Positions 1,334-54,489 of a stretch of DNA of 64,000 nucleotides are shown here, in pieces. Position 1 is the stretch's first letter, and every line of letters begins with the position of its first letter. The notes under the pieces were generated by a model. The model was not told the DNA's origin, searched no databases, and was given only the letters and a program-made list of their open reading frames with translations. The stretch is from Rhodospirillales bacterium. GTDB taxonomy: Bacteria; Pseudomonadota; Alphaproteobacteria; Acetobacterales; Acetobacteraceae. The translations under genes and the position numbers were made by a program. Location: positions 1 through 64,000 of the forward strand of contig JAGWQN010000127.1 in the NCBI GenBank assembly GCA_028869995.1, written 5' to 3'.

Positions 1334-2518
1334 CTAGCCGGCGACGTCTCCGCCGAGCTCCGCGCGCAGCGTGTCGATCGGCAGCCAGGCGCCATCACGC
1401 TCGAAGTGCCAGAACAGCCAGCCGTTGCAGGAGGGGGCGTTCTGGATCGCGGCGCCTACCCGATGGATCGAGCCCTGGTGGGCCCCGCAACGGATCGAAC
1501 CGTCGGCCGCGACCACCGCGCGCACCTTGCGCGTACGATCGGCCAGCCGCGTGCCCGGCGCCAGCAGGCCACGCTCCACCAGCGTGCCGAACGGCACCCG
1601 CGGCAACTCGCGCTTGCTCGGCGTCGTGACCAGAGCTTCGGCAGAGATGGGGGTGACCTGCTTCAGGCGCCCCAGCGCCGCTTCGACATAGGCCGGGTGC
1701 CGGTCGATCCCGATATAGTGGCGGCCCAGCCGGCGCGCGACCGCGGCCGTGGTTCCCGTGCCGAGGAACGGATCCAGAACGATCTCCCCAGGCGCCGTGC
1801 TGGAGACCAGCACGCGATGCAGCAATGCCTCGGGCTTCTGCGTCGGGTGCAGCTTCAGCCCGTGGGCGTTGCGCAACCGCTCGGCGCCGGTGCAGAGCGG
1901 AATGAACCAGTCGCTGCGCATCTGCAGGTCGTCGTTGAGCGCTTTCATCGCCTGGTAGTTGAAGCGGTAGCGCGCATCGCGCCCCCGCGCCGCCCAGAGC
2001 AGCGTCTCGTGCGCGTTGGTGAAGCGGCGGCCGCGAAAATTCGGCATCGGGTTGGCTTTGCGCCAGACGATGTCGTTAAGCAGCCAAAAGCCCAGATCCT
2101 GAAGAATCGAGCCGATGCGAAAGATGTTGTGGTAACTGCCGATCACCCAGAGCGTGCCGTCCTTGCGCAGGACCCGGCGGCATTCGGTCAGCCACGCTCG
2201 GGTGAACGCATCGTAGGCACCGAGGTCCTCGAACCGGTCCCACGCCTCGCTCACGCCGTCCACCAGGCTCTCGTCCGGCCTGCGCAGTTCGCCACCCAAC
2301 TGCAAATTATAGGGTGGGTCCGCGAACACACAGTGGATCGAGGCAGGCGGCAGGGTCTGCATGATGCGCACGGCATCACCGCGGATCACCTGATCGAGCG
2401 GCAGGTCTCGAACGATCTCCACTTGGTTCCTGTCGGCTCGTTGGAGTGGGCGTGGGGGCGGACGCAAGGCAGGCTTGGTGAGGGCGGCGCGGGAACGGGT
2501 CTTCGTCAGAGGGGGCAT
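1334..2518 (-). CDS. ccrM: CcrM-type cell-cycle adenine-N6 DNA methyltransferase (GANTC)
   Basis: This is a 394-residue beta-class adenine methyltransferase. The catalytic DPPY motif is at 67-70 and the SAM-binding DPFLGTGTT at 249-257. A C-terminal RAMA-type domain (about 300-390) contains the GSIHRVGA and SCNGWLFW elements of CcrM. CcrM methylates the adenine in GANTC in alphaproteobacteria and couples replication to transcription of cell-cycle genes. The length is slightly above the roughly 360 residues of Caulobacter CcrM, owing to a proline- and arginine-rich N-terminus of about 35 residues, so the true start may be further in. It lies 24 bases downstream of rnhB, the usual alphaproteobacterial neighbour. 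Confidence 0.93.
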   Translation of the reverse strand: MPPLTKTRSRAALTKPALRPPPRPLQRADRNQVEIVRDLPLDQVIRGDAVRIMQTLPPASIHCVFADPPYNLQLGGELRRPDESLVDGVSEAWDRFEDLGAYDAFTRAWLTECRRVLRKDGTLWVIGSYHNIFRIGSILQDLGFWLLNDIVWRKANPMPNFRGRRFTNAHETLLWAARGRDARYRFNYQAMKALNDDLQMRSDWFIPLCTGAERLRNAHGLKLHPTQKPEALLHRVLVSSTAPGEIVLDPFLGTGTTAAVARRLGRHYIGIDRHPAYVEAALGRLKQVTPISAEALVTTPSKRELPRVPFGTLVERGLLAPGTRLADRTRKVRAVVAADGSIRCGAHQGSIHRVGAAIQNAPSCNGWLFWHFERDGAWLPIDTLRAELGGDVAG

Positions 2519-2542
2519 GAGGCCGTATCGTTCGTTGGCGCG

Positions 2543-48599: not shown

Positions 48600-49634
48600 T
48601 CATGGGGCGGGCCCTTCCGCCAGACCGGCCAGCCGAACGCATTTAAGCATCACGCTCGGCAGCCCCGCCTGCCCGAGACGCGCCGCTGGCACCAGCTCTC
48701 CGGGTGCCGAGATGCGCGCGACCGCGGCGCGCATCAGCGTGATCTCGAGCTCGGCGTGGGTGAAGCCATGCCAAAGCGTCCCGATCGGCCTCCAGACGGC
48801 CTTCGCCGGGGCGAGCGCGAGCGCCTCCTCCGGTGTCCATTCGGCCGGACGCCAGGAGGTTCCAGGCAACTCCATCATGCCGCCGAGCACCCCCTCGCGG
48901 GGACGCCGGCGTAGCAAGACCCGGCCGGCCGCGTCCTCCAGCAGAAAATGCACCCCGAACCAGCGCGCCCGCGGCTTTTTCGGCGCGCGCACGGGCAGCC
49001 GCTGCGCGATGTCGCGCCCGGCGCAACCGTCGCGCCATGGGCAGGCGGGACAGCGCGGCGAGACGGGCGTGCAGACGGTGGCGCCCAGATCGAAGAGCGC
49101 CTGCGCCACATCGCCGGGCCGGGCGTGGGCCGCCTCCTGCTGGCCGATCCGGGCCGCCGCCGCCCGTATCGCGGCTTTGCCGCGCGGCAGCGGTATCTCG
49201 ATGCGCGCGACGCGGGCCATCACGCGTTCGACATTGCCGTCCACCGGGACGGCCGGCAGGCCGAAGCCGATCGCGCCCACCGCCGCGGCCGTATAGGCAC
49301 CCACCCCCGGCAAGGCGCGCAGGCCGTCGATATCCGCCGGGAAACCACGCGCCGCGATCACCTGTGCGGCGGCATGCAGGCGCCTGGCGCGGGCGTAGTA
49401 GCCGAGCCCGGCCCACATCCGCAGCACCTCCTCCTCCCCCGCGGCCGCCATCGCCGCAGCGGTGGGGAACCGCTCGAGGAAGCGCGGGTGGTGCGGCAGG
49501 ACGGTCGCGACCGTGGTCTGTTGCAGCAGCGTTTCGGTCAGCAGCACGTGCCACGGGTCCACCTCGCCCCGTCGCCAGGGCAGGTCCCGCTTGTGCTGAT
49601 CGTACCAGTCGAGCAATTGGGTCACGCACACCAC
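48600..49634 (-). CDS. mutY: A/G-specific adenine glycosylase
   Basis: About 344 residues. The N-terminal helix-hairpin-helix glycosylase domain has LLTETLLQQTT (catalytic Glu), ALPGVGAYTAAAVGAIGFG (hairpin) and VPVDGNVERVMAR (catalytic Asp). The [4Fe-4S] ligands are in CTPVSPRCPACPWRDGC. A NUDIX-like C-terminal domain recognises 8-oxoguanine (GVLGGMMELPGTSW). It removes adenine opposite 8-oxoG. The start is one of clustered GTGs at 49634, 49631 or 49625; none has a clear ribosome site. The dciA ATG on the other strand is only 9 bases from the first. Confidence 0.9.
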   Translation of the reverse strand: MVCVTQLLDWYDQHKRDLPWRRGEVDPWHVLLTETLLQQTTVATVLPHHPRFLERFPTAAAMAAAGEEEVLRMWAGLGYYARARRLHAAAQVIAARGFPADIDGLRALPGVGAYTAAAVGAIGFGLPAVPVDGNVERVMARVARIEIPLPRGKAAIRAAAARIGQQEAAHARPGDVAQALFDLGATVCTPVSPRCPACPWRDGCAGRDIAQRLPVRAPKKPRARWFGVHFLLEDAAGRVLLRRRPREGVLGGMMELPGTSWRPAEWTPEEALALAPAKAVWRPIGTLWHGFTHAELEITLMRAAVARISAPGELVPAARLGQAGLPSVMLKCVRLAGLAEGPAP

Positions 49635-49643
49635 AAGCCCGAT

Positions 49644-50135
49644 ATGACGAGCGAACCTCGATCCGTCTATGCGCCGAAAGCATCGGTCCATGCGCCGAAG
49701 GCCTTGGGGGCGATCCTGGCGCCGCTCGTGCGGCCGGCGCTGAAGCGGCGCGCGCCCTCGATCGCGGCCCTGCTCGCGGAATGGGAGGCCGTGGTGGGCC
49801 CGGCCATCGCCGCCGTGACCGTACCCCGCCGCCTTGCCGCGGGAACGCTGACCCTCGCCGCCAGCCCGCCGATTGCGTTGGAGCTGCAACACCTGGCGCC
49901 GCAACTGCTCTCCCGCATCAACGCCTTCCTTGGCTCAGAGGCCGCAACCCGCCTGCGCTTCGCGCCGAGCATCGTCGCCCCCCCGCAGCATCCGCAGCCG
50001 GCCTCGCCCTCGCCCGAAGCCGTGGCCCGCGTCGCCGCCGCGGTGGCATCGCTGCCGGAGGGTCCGCTCCGCGCGGCGCTGGAGGCTTTGGGCACCGCCC
50101 TCGCCGCGAAAACGACCGGCGCCCCCGAAGCCTGA
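49644..50135 (+). CDS. DUF721 / DciA-like protein
   Basis: 163 residues. The DUF721 core is ALLAEWEAVVGPAIAAVTVPRRLAAGTLTLAASPP, followed by ELQHLAPQLLSRINAFLG. DciA-type proteins recruit or load the replicative helicase DnaB in bacteria that lack DnaC; that role is known for the family but not shown for this copy. The C-terminal part is alanine- and proline-rich. The gene diverges from mutY and precedes the DsbA-like gene and smc, an order shared by many alphaproteobacteria. Confidence 0.88.
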   Translation: MTSEPRSVYAPKASVHAPKALGAILAPLVRPALKRRAPSIAALLAEWEAVVGPAIAAVTVPRRLAAGTLTLAASPPIALELQHLAPQLLSRINAFLGSEAATRLRFAPSIVAPPQHPQPASPSPEAVARVAAAVASLPEGPLRAALEALGTALAAKTTGAPEA

Positions 50136-50233: not shown

Positions 50234-50920
50234 ATGCAACGCCGCGCCCTGATCGCGTCCGCTGCCGCCGTCGTCGTCGTGGGCGCTGCCGGCGGCGTGG
50301 CTTGGTATTCGAGGCGCTCAAGCCGCCCCGTGGGCACCCCGCCGGCCCCCGCTCTGCCCGCGGCCCTGCCCCCGACCGACCCGAAGATGACACCCCGCGC
50401 CATCGGCCAGGCCGACGCGCCGGTGACGGTGATGGAGTTCTTCTCCCTCACCTGCCCTCATTGCGCCCGCTTCAGCGGCACCACGCTGCAGCAGGTCAAG
50501 AAAGACTTGGTCGCAACGGGGAAGGTGCGGATCGTTTTCCACGACTTCCCGCTCGACAACCTCGCCCTGCTCGCAGCGATGGTCGCGCGCACCCTACCGG
50601 CCGACAAATACGAACCGTTCTGCGAGGCGCTGTTCGCCTCCCAGGACACCTGGGCCTTCGCGCGCAACGTCGACAACATCGCCGAGCTCGGCAAGATCGC
50701 CGCCCTCTGGGGCATGCCGAACGACCAATTCCGGGCCGCCATCGCCGATACGCCGCTCAAGGTCGCCCTGCTCAATCGACAGGACAATGACCAAAAGCGT
50801 TACAGCATCGACAGCACGCCGAGCTTCGTCTTCAACGGCCCTGGCGCGAAGAACGTGAAGCTGGTCGGAGAAATGCCGTACTCTGATTTCGCCGGCGCGG
50901 TCGCCAAGGCCGCCGCGTAG
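50234..50920 (+). CDS. DsbA-family thiol oxidoreductase
   Basis: 228 residues. An N-terminal signal or anchor (about 5-24) is followed by a thioredoxin-fold domain with CPHC (C74-C77) in MEFFSLTCPHCARF, an inserted helical domain, and the cis-Pro loop STPSFVFNG. It is of the DsbA/ScsC/Bdb type acting in the periplasm as disulfide oxidase or isomerase. No DsbB is present in the window. GGAG lies 6 bases before the ATG. It sits directly upstream of smc, as in other alphaproteobacteria. Confidence 0.92.
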   Translation: MQRRALIASAAAVVVVGAAGGVAWYSRRSSRPVGTPPAPALPAALPPTDPKMTPRAIGQADAPVTVMEFFSLTCPHCARFSGTTLQQVKKDLVATGKVRIVFHDFPLDNLALLAAMVARTLPADKYEPFCEALFASQDTWAFARNVDNIAELGKIAALWGMPNDQFRAAIADTPLKVALLNRQDNDQKRYSIDSTPSFVFNGPGAKNVKLVGEMPYSDFAGAVAKAAA

Positions 50921-50978
50921 AACCGCAGCGGCAGGGTGGCGGCGAACCCTCCGCCGTGCCGGCCGCGGGCCAATATTC

Positions 50979-51006
50979 TCGACTCTCCGGCCACTCCTGT
51001 TAGATT
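50979..51006 (+). promoter_or_regulatory. possible smc promoter with GANTC over the -35 region
   Basis: TCGACT (50979-50984) and TAGATT (51001-51006) are 16 bases apart, each matching 4 of 6 sigma-70 consensus positions. GACTC at 50981-50985 is a GANTC site, the target of CcrM methylation, and overlaps the -35 element. Transcription would start near 51013. The element scores are modest. Confidence 0.4.
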
Positions 51007-51032
51007 ACCAGATACGGTTACCCCGCCGAAAG

Positions 51033-51041
51033 TTATCCACA
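51033..51041 (+). promoter_or_regulatory. perfect DnaA box upstream of smc
   Basis: TTATCCACA matches the consensus 9-mer exactly. It lies 32 bases before the smc start codon, in the presumed leader just after the possible promoter. A DnaA regulatory role at smc is inferred from position. I did not notice a second copy in the window, but the search was by eye. Confidence 0.6.
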
Positions 51042-51072
51042 AGCTGTAGGGGACCGAGCCAGGAGAGGCCGT

Positions 51073-54000
51073 TTGCCCGTCCGCTTCACCCGTCTGCGCA
51101 TTGCCGGCTTCAAATCGTTCGCCGAACCCACGACCGTGGAGATCCACGAGGGGCTGACCGGCATCGTCGGCCCCAATGGCTGCGGCAAGTCCAACATCGT
51201 CGAGTCGCTGCGCTGGGCCATGGGCGAGACCTCCGCGAAATCGCTGCGCGGCGGCGAGATGGAGGACGTCATCTTCGCCGGCACCGCGGCGCGCCCCGCT
51301 CGCAACCTCGCCGAAGTCACCATCTCGCTCGAGGAAACGCAGGGCCGCGCGCCCCCGCCACTGCATGAGGCCCCGGATCTCGAAATCTCCCGGCGCATCG
51401 AACGCGGCCAAGGCAGCCTCTATCGCATCAATGGCCGCGAGGCGCGCGCACGCGACGTGCAGACACTGTTCGCCGATCTGGCCACCGGCGCCCATTCGTC
51501 CGGTATGGTCAGCCAGGGCCGTATCGCCGCCGTGGTCAATGCCCGCCCCGACGAGCGCCGGGCGATCCTTGAAGAGGCGGCCGGTATTACCGGCCTGCAC
51601 GCACGCCGACACGAGGCCGAGCTGAAGCTGCGGGCGGCAGAGGCCAACCTGTCGCGCGCCGAGGACCTTCGGGGCCAGCTCGAATCGCAGCACGAGGCGC
51701 TCAAGCGCCAGGCCCGCCAGGCCGCCCGCTATCGCAACATCTCCGGCGCCGTCCGCAACGCCGAGGCGGAGCTGCTGTCGATCCAGCGCGCCGCCGCCGT
51801 GGCGGCCGAGCAGGAAGCGGCCGCTGCGCAGGCCCTCGCGGTCAGCGCCGTTGCCGCCGCCACCGCCGACGCGACCGCCGCCGCCACCGCCGCCACGGAA
51901 GCCGCCGCCGCCTTGCCGCCACTTCGCGGCAGCGAGGCGGAAGCACGCACCGCCCTCGAGCGCTCGCGCATCGCCGCCGAGCAGGTAGCGGCCGAGGCCC
52001 AGCGCGCGCGCGAGGCCCTCGCGCAGGCCGAGCGCGACCTGGCACGGATCGAGGCCGATCTTGCGCACGCCATGGCGGCCCGCAACGATGCCGAGGCAGC
52101 CCGCGAACGGCTCTCGCGCGAGCGCGCGACGCTCACCGAACAGGCTCAGGCGCTGCCGGCGCGCATCGCCGAGGCCGACGGCCTGCTCACCACCGCGACC
52201 GATGCGGTGCGTTCGGCAGAGGCCGAGGCCAACCGCGCGACCGAACACGCCGCGACCGAGGAAGCGGCCGCGCGCAGCCGTAACGAAGCCAGGCTTTTCG
52301 CCGAGGCGCGGCTGAAGCGCATCGAGGAACGGGCGCAGCGTCTTGCCGCCGAGCGGGCGCGCATTCCCCGCCCAGACCCCACCGCACTGGACGCAGCGCG
52401 CGAGGAGGCTGAACAGGCTCAGGCGGCCCTCGCCGCTATCCGGGCCGCGCTGGAACAGGCCGAGGCCGATCGCGCCACGGGCGACCAGGCTCGGATGGCC
52501 GCGCGCGACACGGCCGAAGCGGCACGCACGCGCATGGCCAGCCTCGCCGCCGAAATCCGGACCCTCGAGGAACTGGTGGGCAACGCCTCCACCCTGGCTG
52601 GCGCTTTGGGCGTCCCGGAAGGTATGGAGGCGGCCGTCGCCGCGGCCTTGGGCGAGGCTCTGGAAAGCGGCGAGTGGCACGAACTGCCATCGCTGCCGCC
52701 GCCTTCCTGGCCCGAGGGCGCCCAAGCGCTGGCGACGAGCGTGAGCGGTCCGCCCTCGCTCGCGCGGGCGCTGGCCTGGGCCGCCGTGGTGGCGGAAGGC
52801 GCCGACCCGCAGGCGCTGCAGCCGCTCCTGGCCCCCGGGCAAATCCTTGTATCGCGCGAAGGCGCCGTCTGGCGGTGGGACGGGTTCGCCGTGCCGGCAG
52901 GCGCCCGTTCGCCGGCCGCGATCCGGATCGCCCAACGCCGGCGCCTGGGCGAGGCCCGTGCGGCGCGGGCCGAGGCCGAAGCCGCGGCGAACGAGGCCAA
53001 GCAGGCGCTGGAAGCGGCCGAGACCGCGCTGCGCCAGGCACGCGACGCGGAAACCGCAGCACGGGGAGCCCGCGGCGAGACGGAACGAAAGCTCGAGCGC
53101 GCCCGCGCCACGGCAGCGCGCCTCACCACGGAAACCGCGTCCGCCACAGCCCGGCTGCAGGCCGCGGATGAGGAGGAGGCGCGGCTGGGCGCGGATCGCG
53201 AGGAGGCCCGCGCGGCACTCGACCAGGCCCTGGCAGGCATCGCGACGGCACCCGACACGTCGGCCGCGCGTGCCGCGGTCGCAGCCGCGCGTGAACATCT
53301 CTCGCAGGCCCGTCGCGACGAGAGCACCGCACGAGCCGCTCAGACCGAGGCGCGGCGCGCGCTGGAAACTGCCCGCCAGCGCCTGGCCAGCCTCGAGTCG
53401 GAACTCGCGGAATGGTCGCGCCGGCATGCCGACGCCCATGCACGCGTCGCGGATCTCGAGACCCGGCGCGGCGAAGCCGCGGCGACCCGAGAAGCCAGCG
53501 CAGCCTTGCCCGAGGAAATCGAGACCCGCCGGATCGCCGGGATCGAGGCGCTGGACGCCGCGGAACGCACCTACAGCGCCTGCGCCGCTGCGTTGCAGGC
53601 TGCCGAGGCGGCGGCCGGCGCCGCCGACCGCGCCGCGCGCAGCGCCGAATCCCGGCTGGCCCAGACGCGCGAGGAAGCAGTGCGCATCGAGGCCGCGCGG
53701 GAGGCGGCGGCGGCCGCGGTGGGAACCATTGCCGAGCGCGTGCTGGAACGGCTGGGCGTGGACACGGTACTGCCGGAGCCGCCGGCGGGACTCGACGAGG
53801 ACCGTGCCCGCAAGAAGCTCGAGCGGTTGCTGCGCGAGCGCGACGAGATGGGCCCGGTCAACCTGCGCGCCGAGGTCGAGGCCGAGGAAATCGCCGCCCG
53901 CATCGAGGCGATCGTCAAGGAAGGCGCGGAGCTGACGACCGCCATCGCCAAGCTGCGAGGCTCGATCGGCCATCTCAACCGCGAGGGACGGGAGCGGCTC

Positions 54001-54489
54001 GCCGCCATCTTCGAGCAGGTCGATAACCAGTTCCAGGCCCTTTTCGCGCGGTTGTTCGGCGGCGGGCGGGCGCATCTGGCGCTGGTCGGATCGGACGATC
54101 CGCTGGAGGCTGGACTCGAGATCTACGTCCAGCCGCCCGGGAAGAAACTGGCAACGCTTTCGCTGCTCTCGGGCGGCGAACAGGCGCTGACGGCATTGGC
54201 GCTGATTTTCGCCGTCTTCCGCTGCAATCCCGCCCCCGTCGCGGTGCTGGACGAGGTGGACGCGCCGCTCGACGATGCCAATGTCGAGCGGTTCTGCAAC
54301 CTGCTCGAGCATATGGCGAATGACGGCGGCACCCGGTTTCTGGTCGTCACGCACCATCCGATGACGATGGCCCGGATGGACCGTCTCTACGGCGTGACGA
54401 TGCAGGAGCGCGGCGTCTCGCGCCTGCTATCGGTCGACCTCGCGCGCGCCGCAGCCATGGCGGAGGCGGCCCCTCTCGCCGCCGAGTAG
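51073..54489 (+). CDS. smc: chromosome segregation protein SMC
   Basis: 1138 residues with the SMC layout: N-terminal ATPase half with Walker A GPNGCGKSN (33-41), coiled coil, hinge (about 505-630, GVPEGMEAAVAAALGEAL), returning coiled coil, and C-terminal half with signature LSGGEQALTALALIF and Walker B VAVLDEVDAPLDD. SMC forms the condensin ring with ScpA and ScpB and folds and segregates the chromosome. The coiled coils are extremely alanine-rich. The TTG at 51073 has AGGAG at 51061-51065. A perfect DnaA box and a GANTC site lie upstream. Confidence 0.95.
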   Translation: MPVRFTRLRIAGFKSFAEPTTVEIHEGLTGIVGPNGCGKSNIVESLRWAMGETSAKSLRGGEMEDVIFAGTAARPARNLAEVTISLEETQGRAPPPLHEAPDLEISRRIERGQGSLYRINGREARARDVQTLFADLATGAHSSGMVSQGRIAAVVNARPDERRAILEEAAGITGLHARRHEAELKLRAAEANLSRAEDLRGQLESQHEALKRQARQAARYRNISGAVRNAEAELLSIQRAAAVAAEQEAAAAQALAVSAVAAATADATAAATAATEAAAALPPLRGSEAEARTALERSRIAAEQVAAEAQRAREALAQAERDLARIEADLAHAMAARNDAEAARERLSRERATLTEQAQALPARIAEADGLLTTATDAVRSAEAEANRATEHAATEEAAARSRNEARLFAEARLKRIEERAQRLAAERARIPRPDPTALDAAREEAEQAQAALAAIRAALEQAEADRATGDQARMAARDTAEAARTRMASLAAEIRTLEELVGNASTLAGALGVPEGMEAAVAAALGEALESGEWHELPSLPPPSWPEGAQALATSVSGPPSLARALAWAAVVAEGADPQALQPLLAPGQILVSREGAVWRWDGFAVPAGARSPAAIRIAQRRRLGEARAARAEAEAAANEAKQALEAAETALRQARDAETAARGARGETERKLERARATAARLTTETASATARLQAADEEEARLGADREEARAALDQALAGIATAPDTSAARAAVAAAREHLSQARRDESTARAAQTEARRALETARQRLASLESELAEWSRRHADAHARVADLETRRGEAAATREASAALPEEIETRRIAGIEALDAAERTYSACAAALQAAEAAAGAADRAARSAESRLAQTREEAVRIEAAREAAAAAVGTIAERVLERLGVDTVLPEPPAGLDEDRARKKLERLLRERDEMGPVNLRAEVEAEEIAARIEAIVKEGAELTTAIAKLRGSIGHLNREGRERLAAIFEQVDNQFQALFARLFGGGRAHLALVGSDDPLEAGLEIYVQPPGKKLATLSLLSGGEQALTALALIFAVFRCNPAPVAVLDEVDAPLDDANVERFCNLLEHMANDGGTRFLVVTHHPMTMARMDRLYGVTMQERGVSRLLSVDLARAAAMAEAAPLAAE

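Follow-up and report, generated by a model that had tools for sequence, protein, structure and literature searches.

The spacer upstream of smc in an uncultured genus of Acetobacteraceae holds a GANTC site that overlaps a candidate -35 element and, closer to the gene, an exact DnaA box, TTATCCACA, and this arrangement is interpreted here, with a rough probability of 0.45, as a genus-specific sigma70-type smc promoter that would be read by GcrA and CcrM at its -35 element and tuned by DnaA from the leader. The window (the whole 64-kb stretch of DNA analysed) is contig C90 of the MAG G000, which is 77% complete, and the genus was sampled in four assemblies comprising G000 and three further species; its placement in the Acetobacteraceae rests on the family of its named neighbours. 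The identity of Smc is secure from its SMC_N match (Table 1). Between 48600 and 54489 the genes form a dciA-dsbA-smc string with mutY divergent, which brings a helicase-loading factor and the condensin together in one cluster, and the dsbA-smc gene order is retained throughout the family.

The first-pass annotation had described a GACTC overlapping a possible -35 element, a perfect DnaA box shortly before the smc start, and a gene for CcrM in the same window, and each of these was recovered (Table 1), with the DnaA box an exact match that occurs once in the window and the candidate -35 element TCGACT a weak one. A spacing of 16 bases separates TCGACT from the TAGATT hexamer (51001-51006), which has a TG at 50998-50999, and read by hand this arrangement with its TG extension agrees with the consensus at 8/12 positions, while a consensus promoter scan returned no site at 9/12. 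A sigma70-type promoter with an extended -10 and a weak -35 element is thus a plausible reading of TCGACT and TAGATT with the TG. Its predicted transcription start (~51012) would place GACTC at about -31 to -27 (~29 bases before the start) and TTATCCACA inside the predicted transcript, at about +20 to +30, with 31 bases between the DnaA box and the TTG codon of smc. The TTG start is supported because a 1-bp indel shifts the frame of the upstream block between the two species compared below, and on the same ground the idea that this block encodes an N-terminal extension of Smc was rejected. An RNA element in the leader was also rejected, with no Rfam match and nothing unusual in the predicted fold.

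Table 1. Genes and spacer elements discussed in the text, with positions in the window.
Feature	Position	Strand	Evidence and remarks
ccrM, GANTC methyltransferase, opposite end of window	1334..2542	-	N6_N4_Mtase 1.6e-62, RAMA 3.2e-17
dciA, DUF721/DciA helicase-loading factor	49485..50135	+	Pfam DciA 4.6e-19; start approximate
dsbA-like thioredoxin-fold gene, directly 5' of smc	50234..50920	+	Pfam Thioredoxin_4 8.5e-31
dsbA-smc spacer, 152 bp	50921..51072	+	~50977-51072 is the block conserved within the genus
Candidate -35, TCGACT	50979..50984	+	Inferred from sequence, 4/6; kept in G002
GANTC (GACTC inside CGACTC 50980-50985), CcrM methylation site	50981..50985	.	Kept in G002
Candidate extended -10, TG-T-TAGATT	50998..51006	+	Inferred from sequence; TG-C-TAGATT in G002
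Exact DnaA box TTATCCACA, single	51033..51041	+	Kept in G002
Ribosome-binding site AGGAGAG	about 51062..51068	+	Sequence; identical in G002
smc	51073..54489	+	Pfam SMC_N 6.9e-59; 1138 aa, TTG start

The smc comparison within the genus is one of two species, G000 and G002, the latter being the sole congener with the start of smc assembled (its smc contig, L048, is apparently JAJZUI010000034.1); the other two genus assemblies lack smc. Between these species the block from the -35 element to the ribosome-binding site is identical in 87/97 columns, compared with 55% of the four-fold degenerate sites in smc and 64% in dsbA, which speaks for a functional block, and the spacer just 5' of it is identical in 25/43 aligned columns. 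GACTC and TTATCCACA are unchanged in G002 and equally spaced, and the -10 region (TGTTAGATT/TGCTAGATT) differs by one base that falls outside the TAGATT hexamer, leaving the element intact. The DnaA box is no better conserved than the block in which it lies (P = 0.36), and the same is true of the GANTC site (P = 0.57); when ten changes fall on 97 columns, a given set of nine columns escapes all of them in 36% of cases. Conservation therefore favours a functional promoter or leader without singling out the box.

Outside the genus the arrangement disappears. A DNA search with the spacer across 397 family genomes gave a block-wide match in the congener only, and the promoter block was absent from ~95 distinct smc loci sampled beyond the genus (107 loci, some of them duplicated between two collections). 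A forward (smc-strand) DnaA box with <=1 mismatch was found in 0 of these loci up to 420 bases upstream, and four of them have a reverse-strand one-mismatch box farther upstream, in the dsbA region. Outside the genus smc mostly starts a few tens of bases after dsbA, and some of the long dsbA-smc spacers found there reflect an N-terminally extended Smc in the Roseomonas group. The first-pass annotation had named the loss of both motifs in close relatives as a refutation; both are kept in the sole comparable congener and are absent beyond the genus, so that the arrangement is real, genus-conserved, and lineage-specific within the loci examined.

The frequency of exact boxes bears on whether the smc box is accidental. 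TTATCCACA was found 1 time in the window against 0.043 expected per 64 kb and 5 times in the 2.88-Mb assembly against 1.9 expected (both first-order), and at the genome rate a 152-bp spacer would hold an exact box with a probability of ~2.6e-4. Ten exact boxes are present across the four assemblies, and 9/10 lie at four orthologous intergenic places, namely at smc (2 species), upstream of uvrC (2), in the plsC-DUF2125 gap (3), and in the gor-aroG gap (2), where gor, aroG, plsC, uvrC, and DUF2125 are names given by eye from translations. The L036 box is placed within a gene end by simple gene calling and in the gap by orthologous alignments. With a reversed control 9-mer, 0/24 sites were both intergenic and orthologous and the shared ones were coding, the coding and intergenic labels of this control set having been assigned by a GC-frame script and not from annotation. 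It is quite possible that the spacer holds an ordinary constitutive smc promoter or leader, in which GACTC is a mere part of the -35 element and the box a 9-mer, accidental or neutral, that the conserved block carries along with it; such a promoter would fit two motifs that are conserved no further than their block and absent outside the genus, a DnaA box that stands alone, and a GANTC site whose chance of occurring in a spacer of this length is 17% at the window's own intergenic rate, which makes GANTC by itself not surprising. It sits poorly with the exact boxes of the genus, which are almost never random in their placement, and with the rarity of such a box in a spacer of 152 bp.

The GANTC half of the preferred reading, GcrA/CcrM recognition at the -35 element, is the part that most resembles known promoters. 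GANTC sites are far scarcer in the window than expected (78 observed vs ~264), a depletion that is general among CcrM-bearing Alphaproteobacteria (PMC3973325), and GcrA scores over the cut-off in all four genus members. Examined as a GcrA/CcrM-type promoter, the spacer has GANTC in its promoter region, with GACTC overlapping the candidate -35 element. In Caulobacter crescentus, the ctrA P1 promoter has GANTC at -29 (PMC4287350), a distance to the start that matches the one predicted for smc, and the CGACTC of ftsZ and mipZ, which is needed for CcrM-dependent transcription (PMC3708114), is the same context as that found at smc, in a genome that also encodes GcrA and CcrM. The position differs, as the motif lies between the -35 and -10 elements in Caulobacter ftsZ and near the start site in mipZ, whereas the smc GACTC overlaps the -35 element. 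The extended motif YGAKTCG, reported as the hallmark of promoters activated by GcrA (PMC7987155), is incomplete at smc, where both species read AGAGTCG on the reverse strand (6/7, with A in place of Y); since the CGACTC of ftsZ and mipZ is present, this shortfall weakens membership of the class, not a similar mode of working. Compared with the GcrA/CcrM-controlled promoters of Caulobacter, the present case therefore concerns a different gene, smc, and has an incomplete YGAKTCG in a promoter that is itself predicted. A genome-wide pattern, CGACTC-N13-17-TANANT, was tried and set aside, as it was not enriched and 2/3 matches were the smc promoters themselves. A functional GANTC site served by GcrA and CcrM with no role for DnaA would draw on the same likeness to ctrA P1, ftsZ, and mipZ and on the single, partnerless DnaA box, but the rarity of the exact box and its retained position in G002 speak against it, and it is considered unlikely.

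DnaA with a standard box-reading domain IV is encoded by all four genus members, and a DnaA box with <=1 mismatch was absent near dnaA in the loci read. In E. coli, DnaA binds chiefly double boxes spaced 2-3 bp, and 13/32 exact single consensus boxes were bound (PMC11317965). The smc site shares with the E. coli DnaA regulon an exact TTATCCACA near a gene start, and it differs from the E. coli double boxes in having no second box at 2-3 bp (PMC11317965): a partner at 2 or 3 bp was not found, the best neighbour matching 3/9, whereas in the same genus a double box spaced by 3 bp is present at uvrC and at plsC-DUF2125. With a lone box at smc and a double box at uvrC, DnaA would probably bind strongly at uvrC and at best moderately at smc.

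The other box sites extend unequally through the family. Upstream of uvrC, a forward box with <=1 mismatch was found in 23/25 loci outside the genus and in 4/4 congeners (L160-L188), with TTTTCCACA at this position in two congeners, and the uvrC box nearly always has a second CCACA-type half 3 bp before the TTATCCACA-type box (e.g., L038:1489-1509). This double box is reminiscent of E. coli DARS1, which is upstream of uvrB. Its candidacy as oriC was rejected in one complete relative, where uvrC maps to 1.00 Mb and the sign change of the sampled skew falls in the interval from about 1.68 to 1.88 Mb. Similarly, the plsC-DUF2125 gap has a second conserved box, often double, in most of the Acetobacteraceae examined (L247-L267; L033:1501-1509). 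Two species of the genus have a single exact box between a gor-like gene and an aroG-like gene of class II (L040:1501-1509, L037:1501-1509), and this box is mostly absent outside the genus. A further exact box, found in G000 only (L034:1501-1509), is flanked by a lytic-transglycosylase-like gene and a divergently oriented reading frame, in a gap that is AT-rich. That the smc box belongs to a small group of high-affinity chromosomal sites titrating or recharging DnaA, unrelated to smc expression, is very improbable: the exact boxes are only a handful, most of them conserved and intergenic beside the unrelated uvrC, plsC-DUF2125, and gor-aroG genes, and in E. coli boxes on the chromosome have been shown to titrate DnaA (PMC12371093), but in contrast to the ancestral double sites the one at smc is single and confined to the genus, and it lies within an apparent promoter leader.

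Under the preferred reading of a GcrA/CcrM-read promoter with DnaA in its leader, a dedicated smc promoter would be located between dsbA and smc, where most family members have almost no spacer. RNA polymerase and GcrA would most likely use this promoter best when the CGACTC site is methylated, and smc transcription would respond to fork passage, through hemimethylation, and to late CcrM activity. From its box in the leader DnaA would probably hinder or tune the promoter, with hindrance likelier than activation judging from the position of the box. The DnaA motifs named for Caulobacter precede the start, at -52, -82, and -83 (PMC4287350), whereas the smc box lies downstream of its predicted start. 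The motifs, their spacing, their conservation in one congener, and the genes for CcrM, GcrA, and DnaA are seen directly, and from them we infer that the promoter is active, depends on methylation, and is bound by DnaA, as well as which way DnaA acts on it. The conserved block, the CGACTC context, the distance shared with ctrA P1, the presence of GcrA and CcrM, and the non-random placement of exact boxes argue for this mechanism, and the two-species basis of the comparison, a box conserved no better than its block, the lack of a partner box, the missing Y of YGAKTCG, the absence of genome-wide enrichment of CGACTC with a -10, and the weak -35 element argue against it. A replication-coupled supply of condensin, which the first-pass annotation had suggested from the two motifs and CcrM, is accordingly best described as a hypothesis whose parts fare differently: the reading of GANTC at the -35 element is reasonable, and CcrM, GcrA, and DnaA are all encoded, while the DnaA part is weaker, its box being single, without a partner, not conserved above its block, and absent outside the genus. 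The broader proposal, that a promoter was gained between dsbA and smc, that smc transcription came to be set by DnaA together with the methylation state under CcrM/GcrA, and that the condensin was thereby freed from the ancestral dciA-dsbA-smc string, is rather doubtful.

The pairing of these two motifs has precedents. In Caulobacter, 19 promoters carry DnaA and CcrM motifs (PMC4287350), and podJ, for example, combines a DnaA motif and a GANTC site at one promoter, as at smc (PMC4287350). The gene smc is unmentioned in the text of that study (PMC4287350), and a report of smc control by DnaA or CcrM was not found in the open literature searched. The kind of promoter is therefore known, and smc as its target gene is new. 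As the exact boxes form a very small conserved set in the genus, the DnaA regulon of Acetobacteraceae becomes directly testable. If the proposed mechanism is true, smc transcription would be tied to DnaA and CcrM, and the dsbA-smc spacer would be a case of cell-cycle rewiring through the gain of a promoter inside one genus.
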